NCBI RefSeq assembly: GCF_001591045.1
Contig: NZ_BCUA01000001.1
Location: forward strand, 1 to 64,000
Source of the DNA: Sphingopyxis granuli NBRC 100800
GTDB taxonomy: Bacteria; Pseudomonadota; Alphaproteobacteria; Sphingomonadales; Sphingomonadaceae
DNA length: 64,000 bases
Direction: 5' to 3'
Positions 8,663 to 24,367 of the stretch are shown here, piece after piece. The position numbers and the translations under genes were made by a program. Position 1 is the first letter of the stretch. Each line of letters opens with the position of its first letter. The notes under the pieces are model-generated. The model was not told where the DNA came from. It made no database searches and saw only the letters and a list, made by a program, of their open reading frames with translations.

Positions 8663-9859
8663 ATGCTGTCGGGTCAGATTCTCGATGCGATGATTACCTC
8701 GTGCGAGAATGCAAAGACCGTTCTGCGGCAAGCCGCGATCGATCCCTCCGACAGGAAAACCCTCAATATTTCCATGGGCGCCTCGGTCGCCGCGGAGTTT
8801 CTTGGCCGGACGCCCGAAGCCTTGTCCAAGGCCGAGGCCCGCAAACGGCTTCCTGCGCCGAAAACGTCCGCCAATGGGCGCAGATTTTACACGGTCGAGG
8901 ATTTGATCGCGATTCGCGAAGCGCTCGGCATCAAGATGGGCAAATTGCCGTCCGAACGGGCCGTCGTCGTGGCCGTGCAGAATTTCAAGGGCGGCGTCAG
9001 CAAGTCGACCACGGGCAAGCACCTTGCTGATTATCTTGCCTTGCGCGGCTACCGCGTTCTCGTCGTGGACTGCGATCCTCAAGCTTCGATGAGCGTGATG
9101 TTCGACGTCAATCTCGAAGCCCTGGTCGATGAAACCCACACGCTATCGAATTTCCTGTCGCCGCGCATCGACGAAGCGGATTCACTGCGCAAGACCATCC
9201 AGAAGACGGCCTGGCCCAATATCGACATTTGCCCGGCAAACCTCGGCCTCCAGGATACCGAATGGGAACTGACCGCAACGATCGAGGAAGGACCGACGGC
9301 GATCGCCGGCGCGTTCCGCATGCTGCGGATTGGACTGGAGGAAGTGCGACACGACTATGACGTCGTCATTCTCGACCCGCCCCCGGCCATGGGGTTCCTC
9401 GGTGTAAACACGCTGACCGCAGCCGATGGTTTGCTGATTCCCGTCCCTGCCCGGCAGCTCGACTATCTGTCGACGATCCATTTCATGCAGACCTGCCGGG
9501 AGGCGATGGATCTCGTCTCCAAGTTCGACACGTCGATCGACTATGGCTTCATCCGGGTCGTCTGCACGATGTTCCAGCCCAGTCGCACGAACGAGGCGCA
9601 GATGCTCCAGGTCATGGAGAAGACCTACGCCGGGCAAATGCTCTCGACGCCGATTCTGCTCTCGGAAGAGATCAAGAATGCCGGGCTTTCGATGTCTTCG
9701 ATCTACGAGATCAACAAGCCCTACGGCTCGCATCAAACTTATGTTCGCTGCCGCGACAATCTCAACATGGTGTTCCGCGAGATAGAGAAAGACATCTGCA
9801 AGCAGTGGCCGTCGCGGATGGCGCAGCTTGGCACCGATCGGTTGACGGAGGCGGCATGA
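8663..9859 (+). CDS. parA: ParA-type plasmid partition ATPase
   Basis: A 398-residue partition ATPase. An N-terminal helix-turn-helix-like region (about residues 30-90) precedes a deviant Walker A motif, FKGGVSKSTT at about residue 112, then the A' motif VLVVDCDPQAS and the Walker B region YDVVILDPPPAMG. Long ParA proteins with a DNA-binding N-terminus also repress their own promoter. It segregates the plasmid together with ParB and a cis-acting site. The ATG at 8663 is preferred over an upstream TTG at 8642. The last four bases overlap parB. Confidence 0.93.
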   Translation: MLSGQILDAMITSCENAKTVLRQAAIDPSDRKTLNISMGASVAAEFLGRTPEALSKAEARKRLPAPKTSANGRRFYTVEDLIAIREALGIKMGKLPSERAVVVAVQNFKGGVSKSTTGKHLADYLALRGYRVLVVDCDPQASMSVMFDVNLEALVDETHTLSNFLSPRIDEADSLRKTIQKTAWPNIDICPANLGLQDTEWELTATIEEGPTAIAGAFRMLRIGLEEVRHDYDVVILDPPPAMGFLGVNTLTAADGLLIPVPARQLDYLSTIHFMQTCREAMDLVSKFDTSIDYGFIRVVCTMFQPSRTNEAQMLQVMEKTYAGQMLSTPILLSEEIKNAGLSMSSIYEINKPYGSHQTYVRCRDNLNMVFREIEKDICKQWPSRMAQLGTDRLTEAA

Positions 9860-10929
9860 GCAGCGCGGGGGGCAGACGGCGGAGTCTCTTGGCAAACGCC
9901 ATCGAAAGCATCGGTACGACACCTCTTCCGACGCCGGCAGCCGACGTCCCCGTCACCGAGGAACGCGCGGTCCGCGAGAAGCCCGCCGAAGACACGGCGA
10001 CGCCGTCATTCCTCGAACGGCGCGGGATCGTGTTCGACGAGATCACACGCACCGTCAAGCGGCCGACCATTCGCCTCAAACCATCGGAATGCTCGATCTG
10101 GCCGGGCAACGCGCGCGATTACGCGGCGCTCAGCTATGATCGCTGTGCCTCCCTCATTGAATCGATCAGGGAGGAAGGAACCAATCGCGAGCCGGTGGTC
10201 GTTCGGCGAACGCCAAATGCCGAGCAGTCCTACGAACTGATCGTCGGCACTCGTCGCCATTTTTCGATTTCCTGGCTCCATGCGAACAATCACAGCGAAA
10301 TCGATCTCGTCGCCCGGATCGAAACGCTCGATGACGAAGGCGCCTTCCGGCTCGCGGACCTCGAAAACCGGGAACGCGAGGACGTCACCGATCTCGAACG
10401 GGCGCGCAATTATCGCCATGCGGTCGAAGCCTATTACAATGGCGTCAGGACGCAGATGGCCGAGCGCCTGGCGATTCCCAAGCAGAACCTCCACAACCTG
10501 CTGCAGCTCGCGGAATTGCCCGACGAGGTGGTAAGCGCCTTTGCGGATCCCGGTGATCTGAAAGTCCGTCACGGCATGCGGCTGTCGCCGCTCCTCAAGG
10601 ACGATCGCTATCGCGACGCCATTCTCGCCGAGGCCGCCCTTATCATCGCCGAGCAGGAAAAGCTGCGGGCTACCGGCGCGGACAAGATTGAGGGCAGCAA
10701 GGTCTGTGAACGCCTGGCCGCGGCCGTGACACCTGCCAGGCAGGCGCCTTCTCCGAAGGCGAAGCCGTCTCTGACGGCGGCTTCAGGCAAGGAAATCGGG
10801 CAGGTTCTCGCCGACACGAAGGCGAAGGGCATCACGATCAATATCAATCCCAAAGGCGGCGGCGCATCGGTCGATGAAATTCTGGACGCGCTGCGTCCGG
10901 TTATCGAAAGCGCGAGATTCGCGAGATAA
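9856..10929 (+). CDS. parB: ParB/RepB-type plasmid partition protein
   Basis: A 357-residue centromere-binding partner of ParA. The N-terminal ParB domain contains the arginine patch in VGTRRHFS (about residue 133) and the ENREREDVTDLERARNY segment; a helix-turn-helix follows (MAERLAIPKQNLHNLLQLAELP). The C-terminal part has a low-complexity linker and a short dimerisation-like tail. The start overlaps the parA stop (ATGA), so both are translated from one transcript. The nearby 16-bp palindromes at 10978 and 13089 are candidate binding sites. Confidence 0.92.
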   Translation: MSSAGGRRRSLLANAIESIGTTPLPTPAADVPVTEERAVREKPAEDTATPSFLERRGIVFDEITRTVKRPTIRLKPSECSIWPGNARDYAALSYDRCASLIESIREEGTNREPVVVRRTPNAEQSYELIVGTRRHFSISWLHANNHSEIDLVARIETLDDEGAFRLADLENREREDVTDLERARNYRHAVEAYYNGVRTQMAERLAIPKQNLHNLLQLAELPDEVVSAFADPGDLKVRHGMRLSPLLKDDRYRDAILAEAALIIAEQEKLRATGADKIEGSKVCERLAAAVTPARQAPSPKAKPSLTAASGKEIGQVLADTKAKGITININPKGGGASVDEILDALRPVIESARFAR

Positions 10930-10975
10930 TGAGAATGGTCGACACTTTATCGTTTAATTTCATATATTTATAACG

Positions 10976-10994
10976 GAGTAAAACGCGTTTTACC
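10976..10994. promoter_or_regulatory. Palindrome copy 1, between parB and repA
   Basis: The perfect 16-bp palindrome GTAAAACGCGTTTTAC (10978-10993) sits 19 bases before the repA start, after an AT-rich stretch that resembles a promoter. An identical 19-base block occurs at 13087-13105 next to the iterons. It could be a repA operator or a parS-like ParB site. Confidence 0.65.
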
Positions 10995-11012
10995 CGCGTT
11001 GCAGGACATGAG

Positions 11013-12143
11013 ATGCCACAAGACTACCGCGAAGACGGTCAAGTAGACCTCTTTCTGCCGCAACTGACGGCACTACCGCTTCGCGACCAGCGCGAGACGA
11101 TGGAGCGGCCGTTCTTTTCCCTGTCCAAGCGCAAGCGTCTGAAGCCGATCGACTATATCAGTCCCGACCGAAAAATCACGGTCCACGTCTCGGCGAACTC
11201 CGAATACGGCCTTGCCACGATCTACGATCTCGACATCCTGATCTATTGCGCCTCGGTTCTCATCGAGCATAAGCGCCGCGGTGCGAACGACATTCCGCAA
11301 ACCTTGAACGTCGTGCCCTACGACATGCTCAGGACGCTCAAACGCGAGGTCGGCGGGCGAGCCTATGATTTGCTGGGCAATGCCCTCGACCGTCTGCAAT
11401 CGACGACGGTCAAGACCAACATCCGCTCGGGTGACGCGGTCGAGACCACCTTCTCCTGGATCGACAGCTACAGCCAGCTCAAGGATCGCACCGGCAACGT
11501 GCGCGGCATGCGCATCACCCTCGCGAAGTGGTTTTACGACGGCGTCCTGATGGAAGGCGGCGTTCTCGCCATCGACCCCGCCTACTTCTCGCTCACTGGC
11601 GGACGAGAGCGCTGGCTGTACCGGGTTGCTCGCAAACACGCCGGCGGCGCAGGGACGGACGGCTTCGCCATCTCCATGCCGACCCTGTTCGAAAAATCGG
11701 GCGCGGAAGGTGACTATCGTCGTTTCAAGTTCGAGATGACGAAGATCGCCAGAGAAAATGCGCTGCCGGGTTATGCGCTGGAGATAGAACTGCGCGGGGA
11801 CGCCGAGCCGTTTCTGCGCATGATCAGGCGCGACCCCACCAGCGAACCGGGAGCCCCCTCCCCTGCCCCGGTTCAAGCCGCACCCGCGCACGGCCGACCC
11901 GCGCCTTCCCCGCAAGCCAAAGCGCCCGACGCGCCGGCGATCGCCTTTCCGGAATATGGCCATATCGCCCATAGTGCCTTCGGCGCCATCGCGCGTGCAA
12001 ACCTGCCCGCACCACAGCGCGACCACGGCATGGTCGCCGATGACTTTCGTTCATTCCTGAGGCAGCGCGAGATCGCATACGACGCCAGTAACATCACGCA
12101 GATCTTCGCGACGTTCTGCTCGAAGCAACGCGCCGCGCTGTAG
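11013..12143 (+). CDS. repA: Replication initiator protein A (RPA family)
   Basis: A 376-residue plasmid initiator of the RPA (replication initiator protein A) family. The N-terminal and central part (about residues 30-280) carries the family core, including FFSLSKRKRLKPIDY, the YGLATIYDLDILIYCASVLI strand-helix and the GGRERWLYRVARKHAG segment. A proline/alanine-rich linker (about residues 280-315) leads to a shorter C-terminal domain. It should bind the iterons just downstream and open the origin. It lies directly after parAB with a palindrome in its promoter, consistent with autoregulation. Confidence 0.92.
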   Translation: MPQDYREDGQVDLFLPQLTALPLRDQRETMERPFFSLSKRKRLKPIDYISPDRKITVHVSANSEYGLATIYDLDILIYCASVLIEHKRRGANDIPQTLNVVPYDMLRTLKREVGGRAYDLLGNALDRLQSTTVKTNIRSGDAVETTFSWIDSYSQLKDRTGNVRGMRITLAKWFYDGVLMEGGVLAIDPAYFSLTGGRERWLYRVARKHAGGAGTDGFAISMPTLFEKSGAEGDYRRFKFEMTKIARENALPGYALEIELRGDAEPFLRMIRRDPTSEPGAPSPAPVQAAPAHGRPAPSPQAKAPDAPAIAFPEYGHIAHSAFGAIARANLPAPQRDHGMVADDFRSFLRQREIAYDASNITQIFATFCSKQRAAL

Positions 12144-15051: not shown

Positions 15052-15513
15052 ATGAGCCATCCCGTCCTCCGCCGCGCGGTTTTTGAAGATGTCGACGAGA
15101 TCCGCGCGCTGGTCCTCGCGGCCCATGCCCGCTGGGAAGGCGTGACGCCGCGTCCGCCGCAGCCGGTGCGCGCCGACTATGGCCGCGCGTTTCGCGCGCA
15201 TCGCTTCGACCTGCTGGTTGAGAACGGCACCTTGGTTGGTCTCGTGGAAACCGTGGCCGAGGGCGATGAACTGCTGATCGTCAATGTCGCGGTCCATCCC
15301 GACCGGCAGGGGGAGGGGCACGGGGTGCGGCTGCTGCGCCATGCCGACGATCTGGCGCGCGCGGGCAAGCTCAAGGGGACGCGGCTCACCACCAACCGGC
15401 TGATGGCCACGAACATCGCGCTCTACGAGCGCCTGGGCTATGTTCGCGAGAAGGAAACCGAGAGCGAACCCGGCATGGTCGCGGTGCATATGGTACGGAG
15501 CCTCGCGCCGTGA
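15052..15513 (+). CDS. GNAT-family N-acetyltransferase
   Basis: A 153-residue acetyl-CoA-dependent acetyltransferase. The GNAT motif A is seen as VAVHPDRQGEGHGVRLLRHA (about residues 78-98), with the R/Q-x-x-G-x-G pyrophosphate loop, and motif B near NIALYERLGYV. The acceptor is unknown. Its stop overlaps the GTG start of the recombinase gene (GTGA), so both are probably one operon. The upstream 110 bases are AT-rich and carry a GATAA/TTATC dyad near 14990-15007 that could be an operator. Confidence 0.88.
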   Translation: MSHPVLRRAVFEDVDEIRALVLAAHARWEGVTPRPPQPVRADYGRAFRAHRFDLLVENGTLVGLVETVAEGDELLIVNVAVHPDRQGEGHGVRLLRHADDLARAGKLKGTRLTTNRLMATNIALYERLGYVREKETESEPGMVAVHMVRSLAP

Positions 15514-16622
15514 CGGCGGGCCGTGCTCTCGTCGCGGTGGAGTCGGCCGATCTCGCCGGCGAGGTGCGGGCGCTGGTCGGGGCGTTGGCGGTGATGGACG
15601 AGGCGCTACTCGACGCGGCGATCAGGGGCTGGTCCCACAACACCCGGCGCGCGTTTCGCTCGGACCTCATTCTCTGGGGAACATGGTGCCGACGCCGGCG
15701 CATGGTGCCGGCGCGCGCGGGGCCGGACGATGTCGCCGCGTGGATCCGCGCGCTGTCGGGCGCCGATCCGTCGGAGGAAACCGTGCGCGCGATGGCGACG
15801 ATCGAGCGCTATATCGTCAATGTCGGCTGGGCTTACCGGATGGCCGGGCTCGATGATCCGACCGCGCCGCCGCTGGTCAGGCTTGAGAAGAAGGCGGCGC
15901 GCAAGGCACTCGGCGCACGCCAGCGCCAGGCCCGCGCGATCCGGTTCAAGGGCGACGTGTCCGATTTCGACTGCCCCGCCAGCGGCGTCTGTCTGGCGCA
16001 TCTGCTGAAGGCCTGTCGCCGCGACCTGCTCGGCCTGCGCGACGCGGCGCTGCTCCGCGTCGCCTATGACAGCGCGGGCCGGCGTTCGGAGCTGGTGGCG
16101 ATCCGCGCCGAGCATATCGAGCGTGACGCGGAAGGGGCAGGGACGCTGTTCATTCCGTCATCCAAGACCGATCAGGCGGGGGAGGGGGCTTATGCCTATC
16201 TTGCGCCCGCGACCATGGTCGCAATCGCCCGCTGGCGCGATGCGGGACATATCGATGGGGGAGCGCTGTTCCGGCGCGTCGAGACGCATTTTGACGGCTC
16301 GGTCGCGGGCGTCGGCCGGGACGCGCTCCATCCCAACTCCATCACGCTGATCTACCGGCGGCTGATCCGCGCCGCCCATGCGAAAAAGCTGCTGGGGCCG
16401 ATGAGCGAGGCTGAACTCGAGCGTTGGGTGAAAGCGGTATCGTCGCATTCAATCCGGGTCGGGGTGGCGCAGGATAATTTTGCGGCGGACGAAAGCCTAC
16501 CGGCGATCATGCAGGCCTATCGCTGGCGCGATCCCCGGACGGTGCTGCGCTACGGCAAGAAGCTCGCGGCGAAAAGCGGCGCGGGCGCGCGCATGGCGGC
16601 GCGATTTGCCGACAGTTCGTGA
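15510..16622 (+). CDS. Tyrosine site-specific recombinase/integrase
   Basis: A 370-residue tyrosine recombinase. The N-terminal SAM-like region contains GWSHNTRRAFRSDLILWGTW; the catalytic domain shows Arg in SAGRRSELVAIR (about residue 190), Lys in SSKTDQ, the HSIRVG His-x-x-Arg box, and the tyrosine in TVLRYGKKL near residue 349. All catalytic positions look present. The GTG start overlaps the upstream acetyltransferase stop. It may resolve plasmid multimers or integrate a mobile segment. No attachment site was identified. Confidence 0.9.
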   Translation: MTAGRALVAVESADLAGEVRALVGALAVMDEALLDAAIRGWSHNTRRAFRSDLILWGTWCRRRRMVPARAGPDDVAAWIRALSGADPSEETVRAMATIERYIVNVGWAYRMAGLDDPTAPPLVRLEKKAARKALGARQRQARAIRFKGDVSDFDCPASGVCLAHLLKACRRDLLGLRDAALLRVAYDSAGRRSELVAIRAEHIERDAEGAGTLFIPSSKTDQAGEGAYAYLAPATMVAIARWRDAGHIDGGALFRRVETHFDGSVAGVGRDALHPNSITLIYRRLIRAAHAKKLLGPMSEAELERWVKAVSSHSIRVGVAQDNFAADESLPAIMQAYRWRDPRTVLRYGKKLAAKSGAGARMAARFADSS

Positions 16623-16797
16623 AAGTGCGTTCGATATTCCGATATTCTATGTTTTGGGACCCAATAGCCATCAAAAGCATATGAACTGCAAATCGCTGTG
16701 CAGATTCTGCGAAAATGCAAAGAAAACCGGGAAATTTTGACACGTTCGAGCCGCTCTCGGGCGCGCAACAGGCTGGTCCGGAACGGGCGCCTGTTGA

Positions 16798-17305
16798 CGG
16801 GGCGGATGTGAGCCGCCACCCCTCGGCCCGTCCGCCGCCGTTGAGAGCTTCAATCCGGTGACCGCATAGCGCGCGTCATAGGCTCGTAACACGACCCGCC
16901 GGAACACGTGATCGCGCACAACGCGCTATACGATCACAGCAACTCTTTCCCGCGCTTCCTCGAAAATGAAGGAGACCCGCGTTTCGCGAACAACCGGCTC
17001 GACGACAGCGAAATCCGTGCGCGGTAGAAGCTGATTTTCATCGGCCAGACCGGCTGCGACAATCCGGCTGAAGTCGCTCGGCGACAACCCCCGAACGGCT
17101 GCCTGAGGCCGCCTGGAAATATGCCCGGCCTCGTTGAGGATGCCCCGTTCAAGCGGGCCACTCTTGTCGGCAAACGGCACCGGCGCCGCGAAATTCAGGT
17201 AGCCGCCAGGCTCGATCAGGGCGAGAAACATTCCTGGCGTCGATGGGTCAGGAGTGACGCGCTCGACCTTAGCGCCCGCGTAATAGCCGTTTGTGCGGCG
17301 AATTG
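16798..17305 (-). pseudogene. Decayed HNH endonuclease-like gene
   Basis: Read on the minus strand, pieces of an HNH restriction-endonuclease-like protein appear in order but in different frames: NGYYAGAKVERVTPDP and LIEPGGYLNFAAPVPF (about 17300-17180), SPSDFSRIVAAGLADEN, then after an in-frame stop near 16928 a segment FRRVVLRAYDARYAVTGLKL, and finally, after two more frame changes, NGGGRAE and VAAHIRPV (to 16798), the HNH core. The N-terminus and the part after the HNH core are missing. This is clearly non-functional and abuts the parD promoter. Confidence 0.75.
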
Positions 17306-17319
17306 AGCTTTGTGATATC

Positions 17320-17337
17320 TTGCCAAATTTTGCCAAA
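17320..17337 (+). promoter_or_regulatory. Direct repeat in the parD promoter
   Basis: TTGCCAAA occurs twice, at 17320-17327 and 17330-17337, one helical turn apart, 19-36 bases before the parD start. It may be a -35 region and/or a ParD binding site. Confidence 0.4.
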
Positions 17338-17355
17338 CACGCTAAATCATAGCTT

Positions 17356-17595
17356 ATGTCGACGATGAACATCTCGCTTCCGGCTGCGCTCAAGGCGTTT
17401 GTCGACCAACAGGTCAACATGCGTGGTTACGGCACGAGCAGCGAGTATGTGCGGGAGTTGATCCGCAAGGATCAGGACATTCAGCGCCTTCGCGAAATGC
17501 TCCTTGACGGCGCCAGTTCTACCCCCACCGCGCCGGTCGATGCCGGATATTTCCAAGGCCTTCGTGACCGTGTGACGCAACGCGCGGGGTCGTGA
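17356..17595 (+). CDS. parD: ParD-family antitoxin
   Basis: A 79-residue ribbon-helix-helix antitoxin: N-terminal MNISLPAALKAFVDQQV strand-helix, GYGTSSEYVRELIRKDQD core and a flexible acidic tail that would wrap the ParE toxin. Family members repress their own operon. The stop overlaps the GTG start of parE by four bases. It shows no sign of damage, in contrast to the gutted pair at 6.1 kb. Confidence 0.9.
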   Translation: MSTMNISLPAALKAFVDQQVNMRGYGTSSEYVRELIRKDQDIQRLREMLLDGASSTPTAPVDAGYFQGLRDRVTQRAGS

Positions 17596-17918
17596 CTGCA
17601 AAACCGGTCATACCGCGCGCCAAAGCGCGGGAGGATGTCGCCCTTGCGGTCGAGTATTACGCAGACGAAGCCGGTGCAGATGTGGCTTTCAGCTTCATTG
17701 ATGCACTTGAACAGGCCTATAGCTTCATCGGGGAAATGCCGGCGGCAGGGTCTCCGCGGTGGTCTCATGAACTGAACTTACCCGGTTTGAGGACCATGGG
17801 GCTGAAAGGATTTCCGTGGCTTATTTTCTACCTTGAATTCGAGACCCATGTGGATGTCTGGCGCGTGCTTCATGCCAAGCGGGACATGCCAGCCTGGTTG
17901 GCTGATGTAGATGATTAA
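17592..17918 (+). CDS. parE: ParE/RelE-superfamily toxin
   Basis: A 108-residue toxin of the ParE/RelE fold, starting with GTG in the overlap with parD. Typical features are the KAREDVALAVEYYADEAG helix pair, PAAGSPRWSHELNLPGLRTM and the C-terminal strand IFYLEFETHVDVWRVLHAKR. ParE proteins usually block DNA gyrase; the target here is inferred. It lies directly before the Thoeris genes, so it may help stabilise this defence island. Confidence 0.9.
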   Translation: MTAKPVIPRAKAREDVALAVEYYADEAGADVAFSFIDALEQAYSFIGEMPAAGSPRWSHELNLPGLRTMGLKGFPWLIFYLEFETHVDVWRVLHAKRDMPAWLADVDD

Positions 17919-18070
17919 CCGCCGATAAAGGGGACGCTAAGCCACCAACTCGCCCAACGGACGACACAGTTGTCTGACCAAGCGTAAATATCAACTCTGC
18001 TCTCTGGAACATTCCAACATCCGCCCCTATCTACTGGAATTATAGGGGATTCAATCATTGGGGGGCATAC

Positions 18071-18517
18071 ATGGCACGTCGCGTATTTTTCAGCTTTCAC
18101 TATCAGCGTGATATCTGGCGCATCAATCAAATCCGAAACATCGGTGAGATTGTCGGAGCATCTGCCGCAGGGTTTCACGATGCCTCACTCTGGGAAGAGG
18201 CCAAGAAGAAGGGCGATGCAGCGATCAAGGCCATGATCGACGAGGGGCTCAAGAATACCTCGGTTACTGTCGTATGCATTGGGGCCGCGACCGCCGGACG
18301 CAAGTACATTAACTACGAGATCAACCAGTCGATTGCTCGCGGTAACGGATTGCTCGGCATCCAGATTCACGAGTTGAAGGACAAGAACGGGCTGACCGAT
18401 ACGATTGGGGCCACTCCGACCTTGTTGGTTAATGCCGGTACGCCGATCTACAAATATGTCAGTCATGACAAGTTGAAGGAGCGGATCGAGGAAGCCGCAA
18501 AGGCGGTAGGCAAGTAA
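18071..18517 (+). CDS. thsB: ThsB-like TIR-domain protein (Thoeris)
   Basis: A 148-residue single-domain TIR-like protein of the DUF1863/MTH538 type used as ThsB in Thoeris anti-phage systems. It begins with the family strand RRVFFSFHYQRDIW and contains VTVVCIGAATAGRKYINYEI, whose glutamate (E83) is a candidate catalytic residue. ThsB senses phage infection and makes a cyclic ADP-ribose isomer from NAD that activates ThsA. It is five bases before the ThsA-like gene, on the same strand. The upstream gap (17919-18070) likely carries the promoter. The identification of the system rests on this gene and its neighbour together. Confidence 0.88.
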   Translation: MARRVFFSFHYQRDIWRINQIRNIGEIVGASAAGFHDASLWEEAKKKGDAAIKAMIDEGLKNTSVTVVCIGAATAGRKYINYEINQSIARGNGLLGIQIHELKDKNGLTDTIGATPTLLVNAGTPIYKYVSHDKLKERIEEAAKAVGK

Positions 18518-18522
18518 TACGC

Positions 18523-19971
18523 ATGGCAAAGACTGCGAAGGCCCGATTCCTTCAGGAATTTCCGGACGCCCTAGCGAACGAGGCTGGCGCCGTGTTCATC
18601 GGCGCCGGGGTCTCGATGGGAGCGGGCTATCCGTCCTGGGTGGAGTTGTTGAAGGACATCGGTGAAGAACTGGGGGTCGGATCGAGCGACATTCACGATC
18701 TCGCCGCCTTGGCGCAGTGGAGCATTCAGGAAAATGGCGGCGCGACACGGGTCCGCAATGTCCTGAAGGAACAGATCGGCAAGAACCACGATGTACCGGA
18801 GTCGCTTCGGATCATTGCGCGCCTTCCGGTCCGGCATATCTGGACCACCAATTACGACCGTCTCGTCGAACGGGCCTTCGAAGCAATAGATAGGCCGATT
18901 GACCCTATTTCAGGACCGAAGGATTTGGCGCTTCGTGCAACCCCTGGGGCAGCGCGGTTTTACAAGATGCACGGTTCCATCGACCGGCTCGATGAGGTGG
19001 TCATCTCGACGGATGATTACGAACTCTACCGCTCGACACGCGGCGCTTACCTGCCTTTGCTGCAAGCCCATCTCACCAGCATGTCCATGCTGTTCGTCGG
19101 ACTGAGTTTCACCGACCCTAACGTCCGGCATGTACTATCACTCATTCGGGAGTGTTTTACGGAGGCGCCGCCCGAACATTTTGCGATCGTCCGGCCACCG
19201 CAGAAAGGGGACTACAAGACCGAGGAAGAGTTCAAGGCGCGATCCGCCCAGCACCGGCTCTGGGCCAAGGATTTGCGACGCTACGGCCTCGTAGCAGTGG
19301 AAATCGACGATTATGACGAGGTTCCTGAGCTTCTGCGCGCAGTCGAGCGGCGGGTTGCCATGAACCGTGTCTGGGTAAGTGGCAGTTGGCCTACCGAACC
19401 AGTCGATGGCGAAGCAGTCAGAATTTTTGCAGTCGCAGAGGGTGCCGGCCGTGCAATCGGTAAATTGGGGCGCTCTCTGGTGAGTGGCGCCGGGCTAGTT
19501 GTCGGGTCGGCAACGATCTCGGGCTTTCTCGACACGCTGCGTGCTGGCGGCGGATGGGACCTGGAACGCAGGTTGATTGCGCGGCCATTTCCCCAGCCTT
19601 TGGCTGGCCACCCTGCAAACCGCGCGCAATGGACCGCCTTGCGCGAAGAACTGGCGCGGCTGTCGGGTGCGGTGATCTTTGTCGGAGGAGCCAAGACGGT
19701 TGACGGTGCTGTGGTCATTGCTGACGGTGTGTTGGAGGAGGCCCGATTGGCTGAGGCGGCCGGTGCGTTTCTATTGCCGGTCGGCGCGACCGGAGGGGCA
19801 GCCAAGCAGCTTGCCGATCAGTTGATCGGCTCAGATCTCGAATGCGATGGTCCTGGCGCCCAGCGCCCCACCGATGATGAATTGTCTGCTCTCTCGAACG
19901 CATCGTCCAGCGTTGGTGATCTTGTCGATCTTGTCGGCACCATTCTCAAGCGAGTCGGAAAGACTGGCTAG
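18523..19971 (+). CDS. thsA: ThsA-like SIR2-SLOG NADase (Thoeris effector)
   Basis: A 482-residue effector with an N-terminal SIR2 domain and a C-terminal SLOG-like domain, the architecture of type I ThsA, which degrades NAD when the SLOG domain binds the signal made by ThsB. The NAD-binding GAGVSMGAGYPSW lies at about 28-39. The predicted catalytic residues are N110 (IWTTNYDRL) and H150 (YKMHGSID), very close in position to those of the studied Bacillus ThsA. The C-terminal part shows RVWVSGSWP, GRSLVSGAGLVVGSATISGF and VIFVGGAKTVDGA, expected for a nucleotide-binding SLOG fold. The length is close to the family norm and the gene appears intact. Confidence 0.9.
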   Translation: MAKTAKARFLQEFPDALANEAGAVFIGAGVSMGAGYPSWVELLKDIGEELGVGSSDIHDLAALAQWSIQENGGATRVRNVLKEQIGKNHDVPESLRIIARLPVRHIWTTNYDRLVERAFEAIDRPIDPISGPKDLALRATPGAARFYKMHGSIDRLDEVVISTDDYELYRSTRGAYLPLLQAHLTSMSMLFVGLSFTDPNVRHVLSLIRECFTEAPPEHFAIVRPPQKGDYKTEEEFKARSAQHRLWAKDLRRYGLVAVEIDDYDEVPELLRAVERRVAMNRVWVSGSWPTEPVDGEAVRIFAVAEGAGRAIGKLGRSLVSGAGLVVGSATISGFLDTLRAGGGWDLERRLIARPFPQPLAGHPANRAQWTALREELARLSGAVIFVGGAKTVDGAVVIADGVLEEARLAEAAGAFLLPVGATGGAAKQLADQLIGSDLECDGPGAQRPTDDELSALSNASSSVGDLVDLVGTILKRVGKTG

Positions 19972-20024
19972 CACTGGTCCCGAGACCCGGCGATCAGCTC
20001 AGCGGTACATAGTAGGAAGCCCAT

Positions 20025-20578
20025 GTGGTCAGATTTGTCACCAAGGATGAACTTCGTGGATTTGCAGCGAAGCTGACCATCACTGAGCAAGCAAGCTTGC
20101 GAAAAGCGGCCGGCTCGCAACTGCTTGGAAGCGCAACCTTCCTGTCGCATTCAAGCAAGGACAAAGAACTGGTCGTCGGCGCGATCCAAGTGCTCGAAGG
20201 CCATGGTGCTAAGGTCTATATTGACGAGGTCGATCCGGAGATGCCGCCCTACACCAGTGAGGAAACTGCGGGCATCCTGAAGTCACGAATTCGGCAAACC
20301 CAAAGATTTGTTCTTCTTGCAGCGCGAACAGCAAGGACAGCCGCTGGGTTCCTTGGGAACTCGGCGTGGCGGATGGTTATAAGGGTCTGGAAAAGATTGC
20401 ACTTTTTCCGGCGGCGGAGAATACTTCGGAACGTGACTGGGCATCATGGGAATATCTCGGCCTGTATCACCGGATAGTCTGGGGCGAAATGAACGGCCGA
20501 CCCGACCCTTTGTGGATGGTACTCGACTACAAACGCTTTACCGCGATCCCACTGCGCGACTGGTTGAGCCGATCGTAA
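20025..20578 (+). pseudogene. Second TIR-domain (ThsB-like) gene, one-base frameshift
   Basis: Starting from GTG 20025, the first frame carries a TIR domain beginning ATFLSHSSKDKELV with KVYIDEVDPEMP, up to RFVLLA at about 20320. Homology continues in the next frame as SANSKDSRWVPWELGVADGY, containing the expected catalytic glutamate in WELG, and on to a stop at 20576. A single missing base near 20319-20321 explains the shift; corrected, the product would be about 184 residues. It is a different TIR type from the first ThsB. Additional TIR genes are common in Thoeris loci, where each may sense different phages. The break could be natural or a base-calling error. Confidence 0.8.
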
Positions 20579-20888
20579 CCGGCACATCGGCTCGCAGGCA
20601 AATTAACACTCCGTCTGGGTTTCGAATATGGCCTTCTACATGCCGATCTGTTCTTCAATTTCGCGCATGCTACGCTTCCTTGCCATCCGAACCTTCCAGC
20701 TGCCCGTCAATAAACCATCAGTCTTGGAACGGCTGCTTTACCAATTGCTGGTTCGTAAGCTGTCCTTCCGGATCGTCCAACCCAGCTGCCCCTCAAGATC
20801 TGCGCAACGCTCCGATGAGCCATAGGTAACGCTTTCATAAATCACGATTGGTCGATAATGTGATCGATAGAAAGGCGCTCAATCGATC
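20579..20888. other. Intergenic region before the Fic gene
   Basis: No convincing gene or repeat was seen. Short frames here lack ribosome sites and family resemblance. It presumably carries the promoter of the Fic gene. Confidence 0.4.
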
Positions 20889-22016
20889 ATGCTCTGGAAT
20901 TGGCAACTCTCCGACTGGCCCGCTTTCAGCTTCGACCCGGGGCTGTTGCGGGAAACCGAGGAGCGATTCCTCAAGGGTGCCGGGGTCGTCGTCGGATCGA
21001 TGCACCATCTCGACGGCGATGCCCGGCAAGGGATCGTGATCGAGCTCATTTCGCAGGAAATGGTCGATAGCTCGGCCATCGAGGGTGAGGTTCTGGATCG
21101 CGCCAGTGTGCAGTCGTCGATCGCACGGCAGCTTGGCTTTGTTTCCGACAAGCGCCGATCGAACCCTGCGGAGGCGGGCGCGGCAGAGCTTATGGCGGAT
21201 CTCTATCGGCGATATGCCCAGCCGTTGACCGACGAGCAGCTATTCGACTGGCACAGGATGTTGATGAACGGTCGCCGTGATCTGGCGGACATTGGTGCCT
21301 ATCGCACGCACACCGATCCCATGCAGATCGTTTCGGGGGCGCTGCATGCGCCTCGGGTACATTTTGAAGCGCCGCCTTCGGATCGGGTGCCGGAAGAGAT
21401 GGCGCGGTTCATTGCCTGGTTCAACGAGAACTCGCCGCAGGGCGGTGCGCCGATGCCAGCGATCACGCGGGCGGCGATTGCGCATCTGTGGTTCGAGACG
21501 GTTCATCCGTTCGAGGACGGCAATGGCCGGCTTGGGCGCGCCATTGCCGAAAAGACCCTGGCGCAGAGTCTGGAGGCGCCGACGCTGACGGCGCTCGCCG
21601 CGACGATCAACCGGCACAAGAAGGCCTATTATGCCGAGCTGCAACGGGCCAGCCAGAGCAACCAAATCGATGACTGGCTGAGCTGGTTTGCCGGCATCGT
21701 GCTGGAGGCACAGGGACGGACGATCGCGAGCATCCGGTTCCTGATCGAGAAGACGCGCCTGCTCGATCGCCTGCGCGGCAGGATCAACGCGCGGCAGGAG
21801 AAGGCGCTGATCCGCATGATGGCCGAAGGACCGGACGGGTTCGTCGGGGGCCTCAGCGCACACAACTATCGCACGATCACCGATGCCGCCTCGGCGACGG
21901 CTACGCGCGATCTGGCGGAACTGGTCGAACTGGGCGCCTTGGAGCGGGCCGGCGAGCGGCGCTATGCGCGCTATCATCTGGCGATCGCCACCAACGCGCG
22001 CGGTGTCACCGGATAG
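20889..22016 (+). CDS. Fic-domain protein with DUF4172 N-terminus
   Basis: A 375-residue Fic protein, expected to transfer AMP (or a related group) from a nucleotide to a target hydroxyl. An N-terminal DUF4172-like region contains the inhibitory helix motif SSAIEGE at about residues 60-66, the (S/T)xxxE(G/N) sequence that blocks ATP binding in class II Fic proteins. The catalytic motif HPFEDGNGRLGRAI is intact at about residues 207-220. The C-terminal part (from about 290) looks like a winged helix. Fic proteins of this layout are usually self-regulated and are widespread in accessory regions. Its place after Thoeris fits a defence or stress island, but the target is unknown. Confidence 0.9.
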   Translation: MLWNWQLSDWPAFSFDPGLLRETEERFLKGAGVVVGSMHHLDGDARQGIVIELISQEMVDSSAIEGEVLDRASVQSSIARQLGFVSDKRRSNPAEAGAAELMADLYRRYAQPLTDEQLFDWHRMLMNGRRDLADIGAYRTHTDPMQIVSGALHAPRVHFEAPPSDRVPEEMARFIAWFNENSPQGGAPMPAITRAAIAHLWFETVHPFEDGNGRLGRAIAEKTLAQSLEAPTLTALAATINRHKKAYYAELQRASQSNQIDDWLSWFAGIVLEAQGRTIASIRFLIEKTRLLDRLRGRINARQEKALIRMMAEGPDGFVGGLSAHNYRTITDAASATATRDLAELVELGALERAGERRYARYHLAIATNARGVTG

Positions 22017-22114
22017 CCTGCCGCGTTCAGGTCAACATCGGCTGGATATCCTGCTTCACTGAAATGGCGAGGTGGGGGTCGTCATCGTCATCGACACCAA
22101 GTGGAAATCCCTGA

Positions 22115-22591
22115 CTACGCGGCCTCTGCGATCAGCGCCATGATCTCAGCGCCGAGGCGCAAATCCGGGACATGGCCGAAATGCTGTACGCGGCGGTGGC
22201 CCTTGCGGTCGATCAGCACGAGGGTCGGTGTGCCCTGCATCCCATAGCGCGCCATCGTGATCGGCAGACCGCCCGGCTCGCCCGGCGCGTCGACGCCGAC
22301 CGGGAAGGCGATGCGATATTCGTGGAGAAAGGCCTCGAGCGATGTCGGGTTCTGGGCTTCGTGATGCTCGAAGACGCTGTGCAGGCCAAGCACGACGACA
22401 TCGTCACGGCTGAAGGTTTCATGGATGCGGGTGGCTTGCGGCAGGCCGTGACTGACGCAGCCGGGACACAGCATCTGGAACGCCTCGATGACGACCACCC
22501 GGCCGCGCAGCGCATCGAGCGATGGCGGCGTATCGGTGTTGAACCACTGAACTGCCTCGATCGCGGGCGCAGGGCTGGTCGGTGCTGTCAT
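22115..22591 (-). CDS. Redoxin/TlpA-like thioredoxin-fold protein
   Basis: A 158-residue redoxin-domain protein with a CPGC active site in IEAFQMLCPGCVSHGLP (about residue 42-45) and the cis-proline region QGTPTLVLIDRKG. No signal peptide is evident, so a cytoplasmic location is likely. It may reduce thiols or peroxides. It is the last gene of a three-gene minus-strand run with a small CPVC thioredoxin and a MarR regulator, which suggests redox control. Confidence 0.82.
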   Translation of the reverse strand: MTAPTSPAPAIEAVQWFNTDTPPSLDALRGRVVVIEAFQMLCPGCVSHGLPQATRIHETFSRDDVVVLGLHSVFEHHEAQNPTSLEAFLHEYRIAFPVGVDAPGEPGGLPITMARYGMQGTPTLVLIDRKGHRRVQHFGHVPDLRLGAEIMALIAEAA

Positions 22592-22649
22592 CGCATGCTG
22601 TCCGAAGAAGGGCGGTCCCGGCGAAACGCGCCGCCGGGACTGCGGTCTA

Positions 22650-22895
22650 TCAGGCCGAACCTTTCACGTCGGCGAGCGAGGCGCCGAAATTGATGTGAAA
22701 GGGCTGGCCGGCGATCACCAGCGCCGGGGCCGAGGCGACGCCAGCCGCCTCGGCCTCCGCGATCCGTCCTGGCGCGTCGCCGAGATGGACGACCTCGACG
22801 TCATATTGCGCGGGATCGAGCGCATGGGCGAGGCCCTGTTCGGCGCTGACGCAGACCGGGCACCCGGCATGGTAAAACGTCGCTTTCTGGGGCAT
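22650..22895 (-). CDS. Small thioredoxin/glutaredoxin-like protein
   Basis: An 81-residue thioredoxin-fold protein with a CPVC active site near the N-terminus (FYHAGCPVCVSAEQGL) and a cis-proline-type turn VASAPALVIAGQPFHIN. The ATG at 22895 is chosen because it has an AGGAAC ribosome site; the frame continues upstream to 22970 without family resemblance. It sits between the MarR regulator and the redoxin in what looks like one operon. Confidence 0.8.
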   Translation of the reverse strand: MPQKATFYHAGCPVCVSAEQGLAHALDPAQYDVEVVHLGDAPGRIAEAEAAGVASAPALVIAGQPFHINFGASLADVKGSA

Positions 22896-22966
22896 GATGA
22901 GATGTTCCTTCCTTGCTTTCGAGGGTGGAGAACCGAGCGCCCCGTTCGTTGCCGCGAGCGGGGCGC

Positions 22967-23599
22967 TCACATATGGGCAGGCTCCTTTAAGAAGCGAGTC
23001 CAGCTTTCAAGCCGCGCGGATGCGTCGGCTTCGACGTGATCGCCGCAGTCGAGACGCAGCGAAGCGTCGCCGAAAGCCGCGTCCACGAAGGCGCAGTGAT
23101 GCGGCGTGGCCGCATCGGAATGGACATGGGGTCGGAAATGCGCGCAGGAGACGCACATGCGCTGGACGGGGATTGCGCCGCGTGTCTGGAGCGCCCCGAT
23201 CATCTTGGTGAGTCCTTTGAGGAAGGCGGCGCGTTCTCTATCATCGAGCACATCGACGGCGCCCAGCAGGGCATCCGGCCAGACCGCCACTTCACTGGCC
23301 AGACGCTGTCCCGCATCGGTCGGATGAAGCTGCACCGCACGGGCATCATCGGGATCTCGAAGCTTCTCGACATAACCCTTGCGGACCAGCGCGGCGACGG
23401 CGTCGCTCGCGGTCGGATGGGTCACGGCAATCTCGGTTGCGATTGCACCGACGCGCGCGGGGCCACGAGCGACGAGATGAGCGAGGATCTGCATCTGGGT
23501 CGGCGTGAGCCCGGTCGCTTCCGCCTGCCGCCAGCCTTCCGCGCGCAGCAGCATCCCGATCCGCGACAGTCCGGTCATGATATGTGCGTCGGCGGTCAT
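22967..23599 (-). CDS. MarR-family regulator with a Cys/His-rich C-terminus
   Basis: A 210-residue winged-helix MarR-type regulator. The DNA-binding core (about residues 15-130) includes LTPTQMQILAHLVARGPARV and THPTASDAVAALVRKGYVEK. An unusual C-terminal extension of about 70 residues carries MCVSCAHFRPHVH, HHCAFVDAAF and LRLDCGDHVEAD, five cysteines and several histidines that could bind a metal or Fe-S centre or act as a thiol switch. It heads the operon with two thioredoxin-fold genes. A palindrome just upstream is a likely operator. Sensing of redox state or sulfur species is inferred. Confidence 0.87.
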   Translation of the reverse strand: MTADAHIMTGLSRIGMLLRAEGWRQAEATGLTPTQMQILAHLVARGPARVGAIATEIAVTHPTASDAVAALVRKGYVEKLRDPDDARAVQLHPTDAGQRLASEVAVWPDALLGAVDVLDDRERAAFLKGLTKMIGALQTRGAIPVQRMCVSCAHFRPHVHSDAATPHHCAFVDAAFGDASLRLDCGDHVEADASARLESWTRFLKEPAHM

Positions 23600-23616
23600 C
23601 GGTCCTCGGCTCCAAT

Positions 23617-23636
23617 ATCGTAGGAGTCCTATATAT
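23617..23636. promoter_or_regulatory. Candidate MarR operator
   Basis: The dyad TAGGAGTCCTA (23621-23631), extended by ATAT on the left and TATA on the right, lies 18 bases before the MarR gene start. It fits the size and symmetry of MarR operators and would give autoregulation. Confidence 0.55.
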
Positions 23637-23686
23637 AATTCGCCGGCAGGTCAAGGAAGGCTGCGTCCGTCCAGAATGAAGGAGGG

Positions 23687-23842
23687 ATGATCGATCCCTT
23701 GAACCGACTGGCGCATAATCGCGGCGACTTGCGCAAGCTGGTCCAGCCCCTCTCAAACGAAATAGTCACCGAGTTGCGTCGACGCCAGCGGGCGCAAGAT
23801 CATGGGTCGCGCCGTGATCTCTGCCGCACAGGGCTGCGGTGA
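23687..23842 (+). CDS. Possible 51-residue hypothetical protein
   Basis: A short frame beginning MIDPLNRLAHNRGDLRKLVQ with AAGGAGGG immediately before the ATG (spacing is almost too short). It is arginine-rich. No family was recognised. It may be real or a remnant. The surrounding stretch (23600-24011) holds nothing else clear except the MarR operator. Confidence 0.25.
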   Translation: MIDPLNRLAHNRGDLRKLVQPLSNEIVTELRRRQRAQDHGSRRDLCRTGLR

Positions 23843-24011
23843 ATGACACGAAAGTTTGGCATCAGGCCCTGTAGGAATGTCGAATGCTCAACTCGTGCCT
23901 GATCAACGCTGCGCTTTCGACGCTCGGCACGTCGTTGCTCTGGACCATGGTTGCGCTTTATGGCTTGGTTTGGGGCGCCAAGTTCGACAGAACAAGATTT
24001 CGGTGCTTCGC

Positions 24012-24367
24012 TTAATCAGAGAATTGATCGAAGGCTTCGACAGCCTGTGCGGCATACATGAGGCTGGGACCGGCGCCCATGTAGAGGGCCATCCCCATCG
24101 TCTCCATCACCTCATCGCGGGTCGCGCCTTTCTTGACCGCCCCTTTGGCATGAAAGGCCACGCAGCCGTCGCAGCGGATCGCCACGGAGATGGCGAGGGC
24201 GATCAGTTCCTTGGTTTTTTACGTCAAGTGCGCCCGCCTTGGTCGCAAGCCTACGCCATCGCGTAGAATGCTGCGATCACTTTAGGCGTGCCGAGCCGCA
24301 CTTCCTTGATGGCGCCGTCCAGTTCAGCGGCCATCTGGGACCAGTCCTGGTGTATATGATCCCTCAT
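24012..24367 (-). pseudogene. Carboxymuconolactone decarboxylase/AhpD-like gene, frameshifted
   Basis: From the ATG at 24367 the minus strand reads MRDHIHQDWSQMAAELDGAI and on to AAFYAMA, then hits a stop; in the next frame comes LATKAGALDV, and after a run of six A (T on the plus strand) near 24215 the original frame resumes as KELIALAISVAIRCDGCVAF through YMGAGPSLMYAAQAVEAFDQ to a TAA at 24012. The CxxC pair characteristic of AhpD-like alkyl-hydroperoxidases is preserved (CDGC). At least two indels break it. One is in a homopolymer and could be a base-calling error. It follows the tolC-like gene on the same strand. Confidence 0.78.

Follow-up and report, generated by a model that had tools for sequence, protein, structure and literature searches.

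The window analysed here, the first 64,000 nucleotides of contig NZ_BCUA01000001.1 of Sphingopyxis granuli NBRC 100800, contains at positions 18,071 to 20,578 a locus that its profile matches, its matches to solved structures and its active-site residues identify as a type I Thoeris anti-phage operon with the order ThsB1-ThsA-ThsB2. The third gene is broken by a frameshift and the first has a different ancestry from the second. We consider it probable that the operon has lost ThsB2 and runs on ThsB1 and ThsA, with a ThsB1 of separate history. Type I Thoeris systems with two ThsB proteins are already known and this locus adds one more example. The parts of the operon are as follows.

18071 to 18517, plus strand: ThsB1, an intact Toll/interleukin-1 receptor (TIR) protein of 148 amino acids, ThsB_TIR family (formerly DUF1863), predicted sensor and cyclase, F6 and E83 kept
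18523 to 19971, plus strand: ThsA, an intact SIR2-SLOG (STALD) protein of 482 amino acids, predicted NADase effector, N110, H150, R374, K391 and E406 kept
20025 to 20477, plus strand: first piece of ThsB2, with the N-terminal region and the first half of the TIR_2 domain followed by an out-of-frame tail
20321 to 20578, plus strand: second piece of ThsB2, in another frame, holding the WVPWELG motif; the listed open reading frame is 20366 to 20578 and the start near 20321 comes from reading of the sequence

The original prediction, made from the nucleotide sequence without database searches, described a type I locus with the order TIR, SIR2-SLOG, TIR and two different TIR types, and proposed profile or structure-based searches of the three proteins. 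These searches matched the ThsA and ThsB families. ThsB1 matches Pfam ThsB_TIR (PF08937, E 5e-25) and the PADLOC ThsB profile PDLC00431 (E 6e-57, all 162 profile positions covered), and the second TIR protein matches PDLC00436, so that the two types are upheld. ThsA contains the Pfam domains SIR2_2 (E 2e-28) and STALD (E 5e-51), the latter confirming the C-terminal SLOG domain that had been proposed, and it matches positions 3-476 of the 478 in the PADLOC ThsA profile PDLC00407 (E 7e-155). The best solved relative of ThsA by sequence is Bacillus cereus ThsA (6lhx, E 9e-78, residues 9-471), and those of ThsB1 are the ThsB entries 9b7d and 6lhy (B. cereus ThsB), with E 8e-30. Membership of type III Thoeris was considered and rejected, as ThsA reached 14.7 bits where the ThcA cut-off is 110, and none of the five sequences scanned had a ThcB4 match reported at E 0.1. 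The three genes lie on the plus strand with 5 bases between ThsB1 and ThsA and 53 bases between ThsA and ThsB2, and because of the short gaps and the common strand they are likely to share a single transcript.

The residues expected of working enzymes are kept in both intact proteins. Alignment with B. cereus ThsA places N110 and H150, which had been predicted in the SIR2 domain, at the catalytic N112 and H152, and S286, F356, R374, K391 and E406 at the pocket residues S288, F357, R371, K388 and E403. F6 and E83 of ThsB1 align with F6 and E85 of B. cereus ThsB, and the catalytic Glu is present. The roles of these catalytic and pocket residues are described in PMC7272460 and PMC10022894. The type I system of B. 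cereus MSX-D12 likewise has one SIR2-SLOG ThsA, a ThsB_TIR protein and a very different second TIR (PMC7272460, PMC10022894), and it shares the catalytic residues of ThsA and the ThsB_TIR protein with the window. It differs in that the ThsB_TIR gene follows thsA there and precedes it in the window, and in that the second TIR of the window is frameshifted.

The two pieces of ThsB2 match adjoining parts of PDLC00436 (183 positions), the first at 1-104 (E 1e-38) and the second at 115-182 (E 1e-25); the TIR_2 match of the first piece is below the curated Pfam cut-off (21.4 of 28 bits). Seven distinct intact relatives align with both pieces, in an alignment of eight rows of which L031 and L032 are nearly identical (L numbers denote the loci collected). 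Agreement with the relatives lasts in the first piece until the FVLL strand and sets in again in the second piece at the NSK-SRWVPWELG motif. The split profile match and this alignment bear out the frameshift that had been predicted near 20320. The Glu of WELG, presumably the catalytic residue by analogy with other TIRs, is out of frame with the start of the gene and is absent from any single-frame product beginning there. Membership in type I is unaffected, as type I systems have one or multiple ThsB genes and a second ThsB is unneeded for membership (PMC11204291).

Apart from the frameshift, ThsB2 is as similar to its intact relatives as would be ordinary (57-67% identity), and the break is therefore either recent or an assembly or sequencing error. 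Under the latter explanation the cell would make all three proteins, and we regard it as unlikely. It gains from the draft state of the genome (4.26 Mb in 181 contigs), from the conservation of both ThsB2 halves at the level just given, and from a second broken gene in the same window at 24012-24367. Against it, the site has no homopolymer, and in a control that compared 22 genes of relatives with the window (19 of 23 features from plasmid pDB-2 of Sphingopyxis sp. DBS4 and 3 of 9 from pISP2 of Sphingomonas sp. MM-1) 17 align over most or all of their length without a change of frame. The remainder are one that aligns in two frames (24012-24367), one that aligns in a 46-residue part only, and three that were not found. 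Programmed frameshifting was judged unlikely, as the seven distinct relatives have one open frame and the site, which was only read by eye, lacks a homopolymer.

An intact third gene, for which the original prediction had suggested a survey of close plasmids, is present in plasmids from Sinorhizobium, Agrobacterium and Cereibacter. Of the 16 plasmid records whose ThsB2 is 60% or more identical to that of Sinorhizobium, 15 span 93% or more of its length. In the remaining one, Sphingobium amiense pSAMIE_3, ThsB2 covers 70% and stops beside an IS21 element. The window is not alone in having a broken Thoeris gene: Afipia birgiae (L061 5461-6602; 201 and 184 amino acids) and a Bacillus contig (L052 602-2121; 373 and 162 amino acids) each have a ThsA divided over two open frames.

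The ThsB1-ThsA-ThsB2 order is found in nine other alphaproteobacterial loci, which differ from the window in that their ThsB2 is intact. Five are plasmids of Sinorhizobium, Agrobacterium and Cereibacter (L017-L021) and four are Brevundimonas contigs (L031-L034). Across these nine loci ThsA is 63-69% and ThsB2 57-62% identical to the window proteins, with ThsA at 64-69% in the rhizobial and Cereibacter copies. For ThsB1 the identity is only 37-40% with L017-L021, against 78% with Brevundimonas, and the copies from Brevundimonas and Mesorhizobium sangaii together are 70-78% identical to that of the window. The M. sangaii locus (L044) has ThsB1-ThsA, and ThsB2 was not found in its 10.4 kb.

A comparison of eight loci brings out the difference between the two genes. 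The pairwise identities of ThsA are all 61-76%. ThsB1 falls into three groups with 35-41% identity between them: the window with Brevundimonas and M. sangaii (70-78% within the group), four rhizobial plasmids (68-80% within the group), and Cereibacter, which is 35-39% identical to all others. The ThsA tree, of 31 loci, places ten of them in a single clade with support of 100/100, and within it Brevundimonas groups with the four rhizobial plasmids (99/98), yet its ThsB1 is of the kind found in the window. In the ThsB1 tree, which was built from 72 of 113 collected rows and whose bootstrap was not fully settled, the same ten loci are scattered and well-supported branches force at least four changes. 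An approximately unbiased (AU) test of a group chosen after the identities had been seen rejects a ThsB1 tree in which the ten are held together (p-AU 2e-71), and also the nine that remain without the long-branched L002 (p-AU 4e-47). Identities of ThsA and ThsB2 are correlated in a set of seven loci (Mantel r 0.71, p 0.005). By the identity groups and the trees ThsB1 has a different history from ThsA, and related operons have different ThsB lineages in the position that precedes ThsA. The original prediction was right about the TIR types; the different ancestry of the first TIR and ThsA was not visible from the sequence of the window alone.

It has also to be considered that the ThsB1 lineages before this one ThsA clade are old tandem copies sorted by differential loss, with no replacement. 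Some loci (L039, L041, L053) do carry ThsB1 in two or three copies that belong to different lineages, but none of the ten clade loci has two (the stretch covered is 4.4 kb in L002, about 10 kb in each other locus and 14 kb in the window) and the genome of the window has one ThsB1. The same ThsB1 lineages also occur in type III loci and in front of distantly related ThsA proteins, which suggests transfer in any case. We find the tandem-copy explanation improbable, and favor different histories for ThsB1 and ThsA.

A recent copy from a sequenced relative was not found in the genomes and plasmids searched. ThsA was matched in 15 of 196 genomes of relatives, its own included, with none other above 53% identity. 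A class-wide draw gave 2 of 385 genomes at E 1e-40, its own included, with the other match at 43%, and the best plasmid match is 69% identical. The idea of ThsB2 as a constant companion of this ThsA clade was rejected, as some of its relatives have no ThsA beside them (L030, L136 and L133, on plasmids of Sphingobium and Mesorhizobium) or lie near a distant ThsA (L134); on a Cupriavidus plasmid a ThsB2 62% identical to that of Sinorhizobium lies near a ThsA only 34% identical to that of the window. A single-sequence query, which reaches close kin only, found no viral contig encoding a ThsA relative, and ThsB1 had no match in phage records at E 1e-5. Twenty IMG/VR viral contigs (L113-L132) encode ThsB1 relatives of 40-67% identity.

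In characterized relatives, infection causes ThsB to make 1''-3' gcADPR, the SLOG domain of ThsA binds it, and NAD+ is cleaved (PMC12578639, PMC11204291, PMC10022894). By analogy, on infection the ThsB1 of the window would make 1''-3' gcADPR (also written 3'cADPR) from NAD+, this cyclic ADP-ribose signal would bind the SLOG domain of ThsA, and the SIR2 domain would then destroy NAD+ so that phage growth stops. With the catalytic half of ThsB2 lost by the frameshift, ThsB1 is most likely the only sensor. That ThsB1 alone is still sufficient is a guess. We put its independent action first because ThsB1 is of the same type as the stand-alone ThsB of B. cereus, where ThsA with one ThsB suffices (PMC7272460), and because of the M. 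sangaii locus without ThsB2. The original prediction had proposed that several ThsB sensors feed one ThsA, an idea already in print (PMC7272460, PMC12578639).

Several results weigh against an operon that runs on a ThsB1 of separate history. A simple scan, which is weak for this bacterial group, found no sigma-70-like promoter at 17880-20900, and the ThsB1-ThsA pair has no near-identical relative in the collections searched. The position of the window beside Brevundimonas in the ThsB1 tree is supported at only 81/81. The identities of ThsA and ThsB1 also correlate across the seven loci (Mantel r 0.48, p 0.02), and therefore the Mantel result by itself is no proof of exchange; the argument rests on the clusters and the trees. 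Finally, the two ThsB proteins of Staphylococcus aureus act together and the catalysis of one needs the other (PMC12578639), so the loss of ThsB2 could silence the operon of the window. The S. aureus 08BA02176 system (ThsA-B1-B2) resembles that of the window in having one ThsA and two different TIR proteins, and differs in that its TIRs, of which tagged ThsB1 is 41.8 kDa, cooperate, where the window has one TIR broken (PMC12578639).

This last point leads to the reading in which the operon is dead or decaying, since both TIR proteins would have to act together and there would be no signal without ThsB2. The two ThsB proteins of S. aureus work in a complex that includes the phage capsid protein (PMC12578639), the broken gene at 24012-24367 is close by, and the ThsB2 of pSAMIE_3 is also cut short. 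On the other hand, ThsB1 and ThsA are intact with every checked residue kept, B. cereus needs a single ThsB (PMC7272460), one TIR of a Streptococcus system sufficed against one phage (PMC12578639), and M. sangaii pairs ThsB1 with ThsA where ThsB2 was not found. We therefore think it doubtful that the operon is dead and prefer a system working through ThsB1 and ThsA. It is very improbable that the truncated ThsB2 piece still acts as a non-catalytic partner of ThsB1, because, although the catalytic residues of S. aureus ThsB1 and Streptococcus ThsB2 are dispensable (PMC12578639), what is lost by the frameshift is about half of the TIR fold and not the Glu alone.

Relatives of ThsB1 are found beside other presumed effectors. 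Its nearest plasmid relatives, 68% identical on Acidithiobacillus pGT2 and 57-58% on a plasmid of Indioceanicola, stand before ThcB4 and ThcA, that is, in type III Thoeris (NCBIfam NF058525, NF058526). Some type III loci start with a close relative of the window ThsB1, but their effector is a SLOG cluster3 protein and that of the window a SIR2-SLOG protein. In the genome collection, the neighbors of the best 80 of 302 ThsB1 relatives were assigned within 3 kb with home-made profiles (ThcA from three plasmid loci, M50A from five of the 80 loci, LD_cluster2 from one). A single effector adjoins most of these 80: ThsA in 26, PDC-M50A in 33, ThcA in 6 and an LD_cluster2 SLOG protein in 3. One locus has ThcA and ThsA, one has PDC-M50A and ThcA, and 10 have none of these, which gives totals of 27 for ThsA, 34 for PDC-M50A and 8 for ThcA with two loci counted twice. 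The 28 relatives among the 80 with at least 65% identity adjoin ThsA (15, four of which are nearly identical Brevundimonas loci), PDC-M50A (6), ThcA (3), LD_cluster2 (1) or none (3), and several of the contigs are short.

Each of the five M50A proteins that were scanned has a match to PADLOC PDC-M50A, with E 2e-47 or better for the best model, and carries hydrophobic stretches of membrane-span length. Small, membrane-like PDC-M50A proteins stand before a close ThsB1 relative at L037 4092-4526, L042 4577-5005, L045 4583-4981, L047 4591-4995 and L057 4607-4987. PDC-M50A is a candidate for a further effector of ThsB signals. The window ThsB1 itself matches the M50B profile (E 3e-49) of the PADLOC candidate system PDC-M50, which consists of M50A and M50B; the window differs from that system in that none of its five proteins scanned matches M50A and the adjoining effector is ThsA.

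Other arrangements were observed. In a Nitrosomonas metagenome-assembled genome (MAG; L046 5548-7496) a ThsB1 relative is followed by a TIR protein and then by an LD_cluster2 SLOG protein that is neither ThsA nor ThcA by the profiles used, and similar SLOG genes lie near ThsB1 in L071 and L094. On a Sphingobium plasmid (L030 5001-8543) a ThsB1-ThsB2 pair without ThsA is convergent with a ThsB1-ThcB4-ThcA operon; the ThsB1 of the pair is kin of the Cereibacter ThsB1 (100/100 in the ThsB1 tree), and L136 4451-7882, also a Sphingobium plasmid, has the same arrangement by annotation only. In Photobacterium iliopiscarium (L070 3527-8701) a type I locus with ThsA adjoins a type III-like ThcB4-ThcA pair, with a ThsB1 relative between them.

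ThsB1 relatives 60-78% identical to that of the window occur in several phyla and in one archaeal MAG. We suggest, tentatively, that this short and strongly conserved ThsB1 lineage may be a portable sensor-cyclase that detects some conserved feature of phages and produces a single signal, which at least four effectors read (the SIR2-SLOG ThsA, the SLOG-cluster3 ThcA, the LD_cluster2 SLOG protein and the membrane-like PDC-M50A), and that plasmid operons exchange ThsB1 while keeping the effector and the second sensor. A limited search of the open-access literature, without the founding papers of types III and IV, found no report of ThsB1 exchange or of its sharing among effectors, both of which may well be known already, and no paper pairing Thoeris with ThcA was found in the open-access literature searched.

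The window is the start of a contig of 187,678 bases. ParA, ParB and RepA at 8663-12140 are 99, 91 and 94% identical to those of pDB-2, which supports the plasmid-borne location that had been claimed. A plasmid-borne Thoeris, which the original prediction had thought worth describing, is not confined to this case, as the same order is intact on the Sinorhizobium, Agrobacterium and Cereibacter plasmids. The backbone shared with pDB-2 and pISP1 ends at 16603 and restarts at 24013, and the operon lies between, in the following setting.

15510 to 16622, plus strand: tyrosine recombinase, left edge of the variable island, common to pISP1 and pDB-2
16604 to 24012, no strand: variable island, about 7.4 kb long; pISP1 and pDB-2 have about 1.06 kb in its place
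17356 to 17918, plus strand: ParD-ParE toxin-antitoxin pair (ParD_antitoxin, ParE_toxin), adjoining the operon
20889 to 22016, plus strand: Fic protein (DUF4172-Fic), the downstream neighbor outside the Thoeris operon (PADLOC SoFic, E 5e-44)

The recombinase is 77% identical to that of pDB-2 and matches Phage_int_SAM_1 above the cut-off (23.2 of 22.3 bits) and Phage_integrase just under it (26.9 of 27.1). The ParDE stretch is 88% identical in DNA to a Sphingobium baderi plasmid, and the proteins of the MarR/redoxin block of the island are 86-95% identical to those of pISP2. At the right edge of the island the carboxymuconolactone decarboxylase gene (24012-24367) is broken into two frames that are 97% and 63% identical to the pDB-2 protein. 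Insertion of the island at a tRNA gene was considered and set aside, as none was found within the window.

The locus is a natural loss of one of two sensors and offers a natural test of joint versus independent ThsB action. The wider pattern is more useful than the locus itself: one ThsA clade has different ThsB1 lineages in its slot, and close relatives of ThsB1 adjoin four kinds of presumed effector. Should these ThsB1 proteins all produce a single signal, a response of ThcA and of PDC-M50A to gcADPR would be expected.

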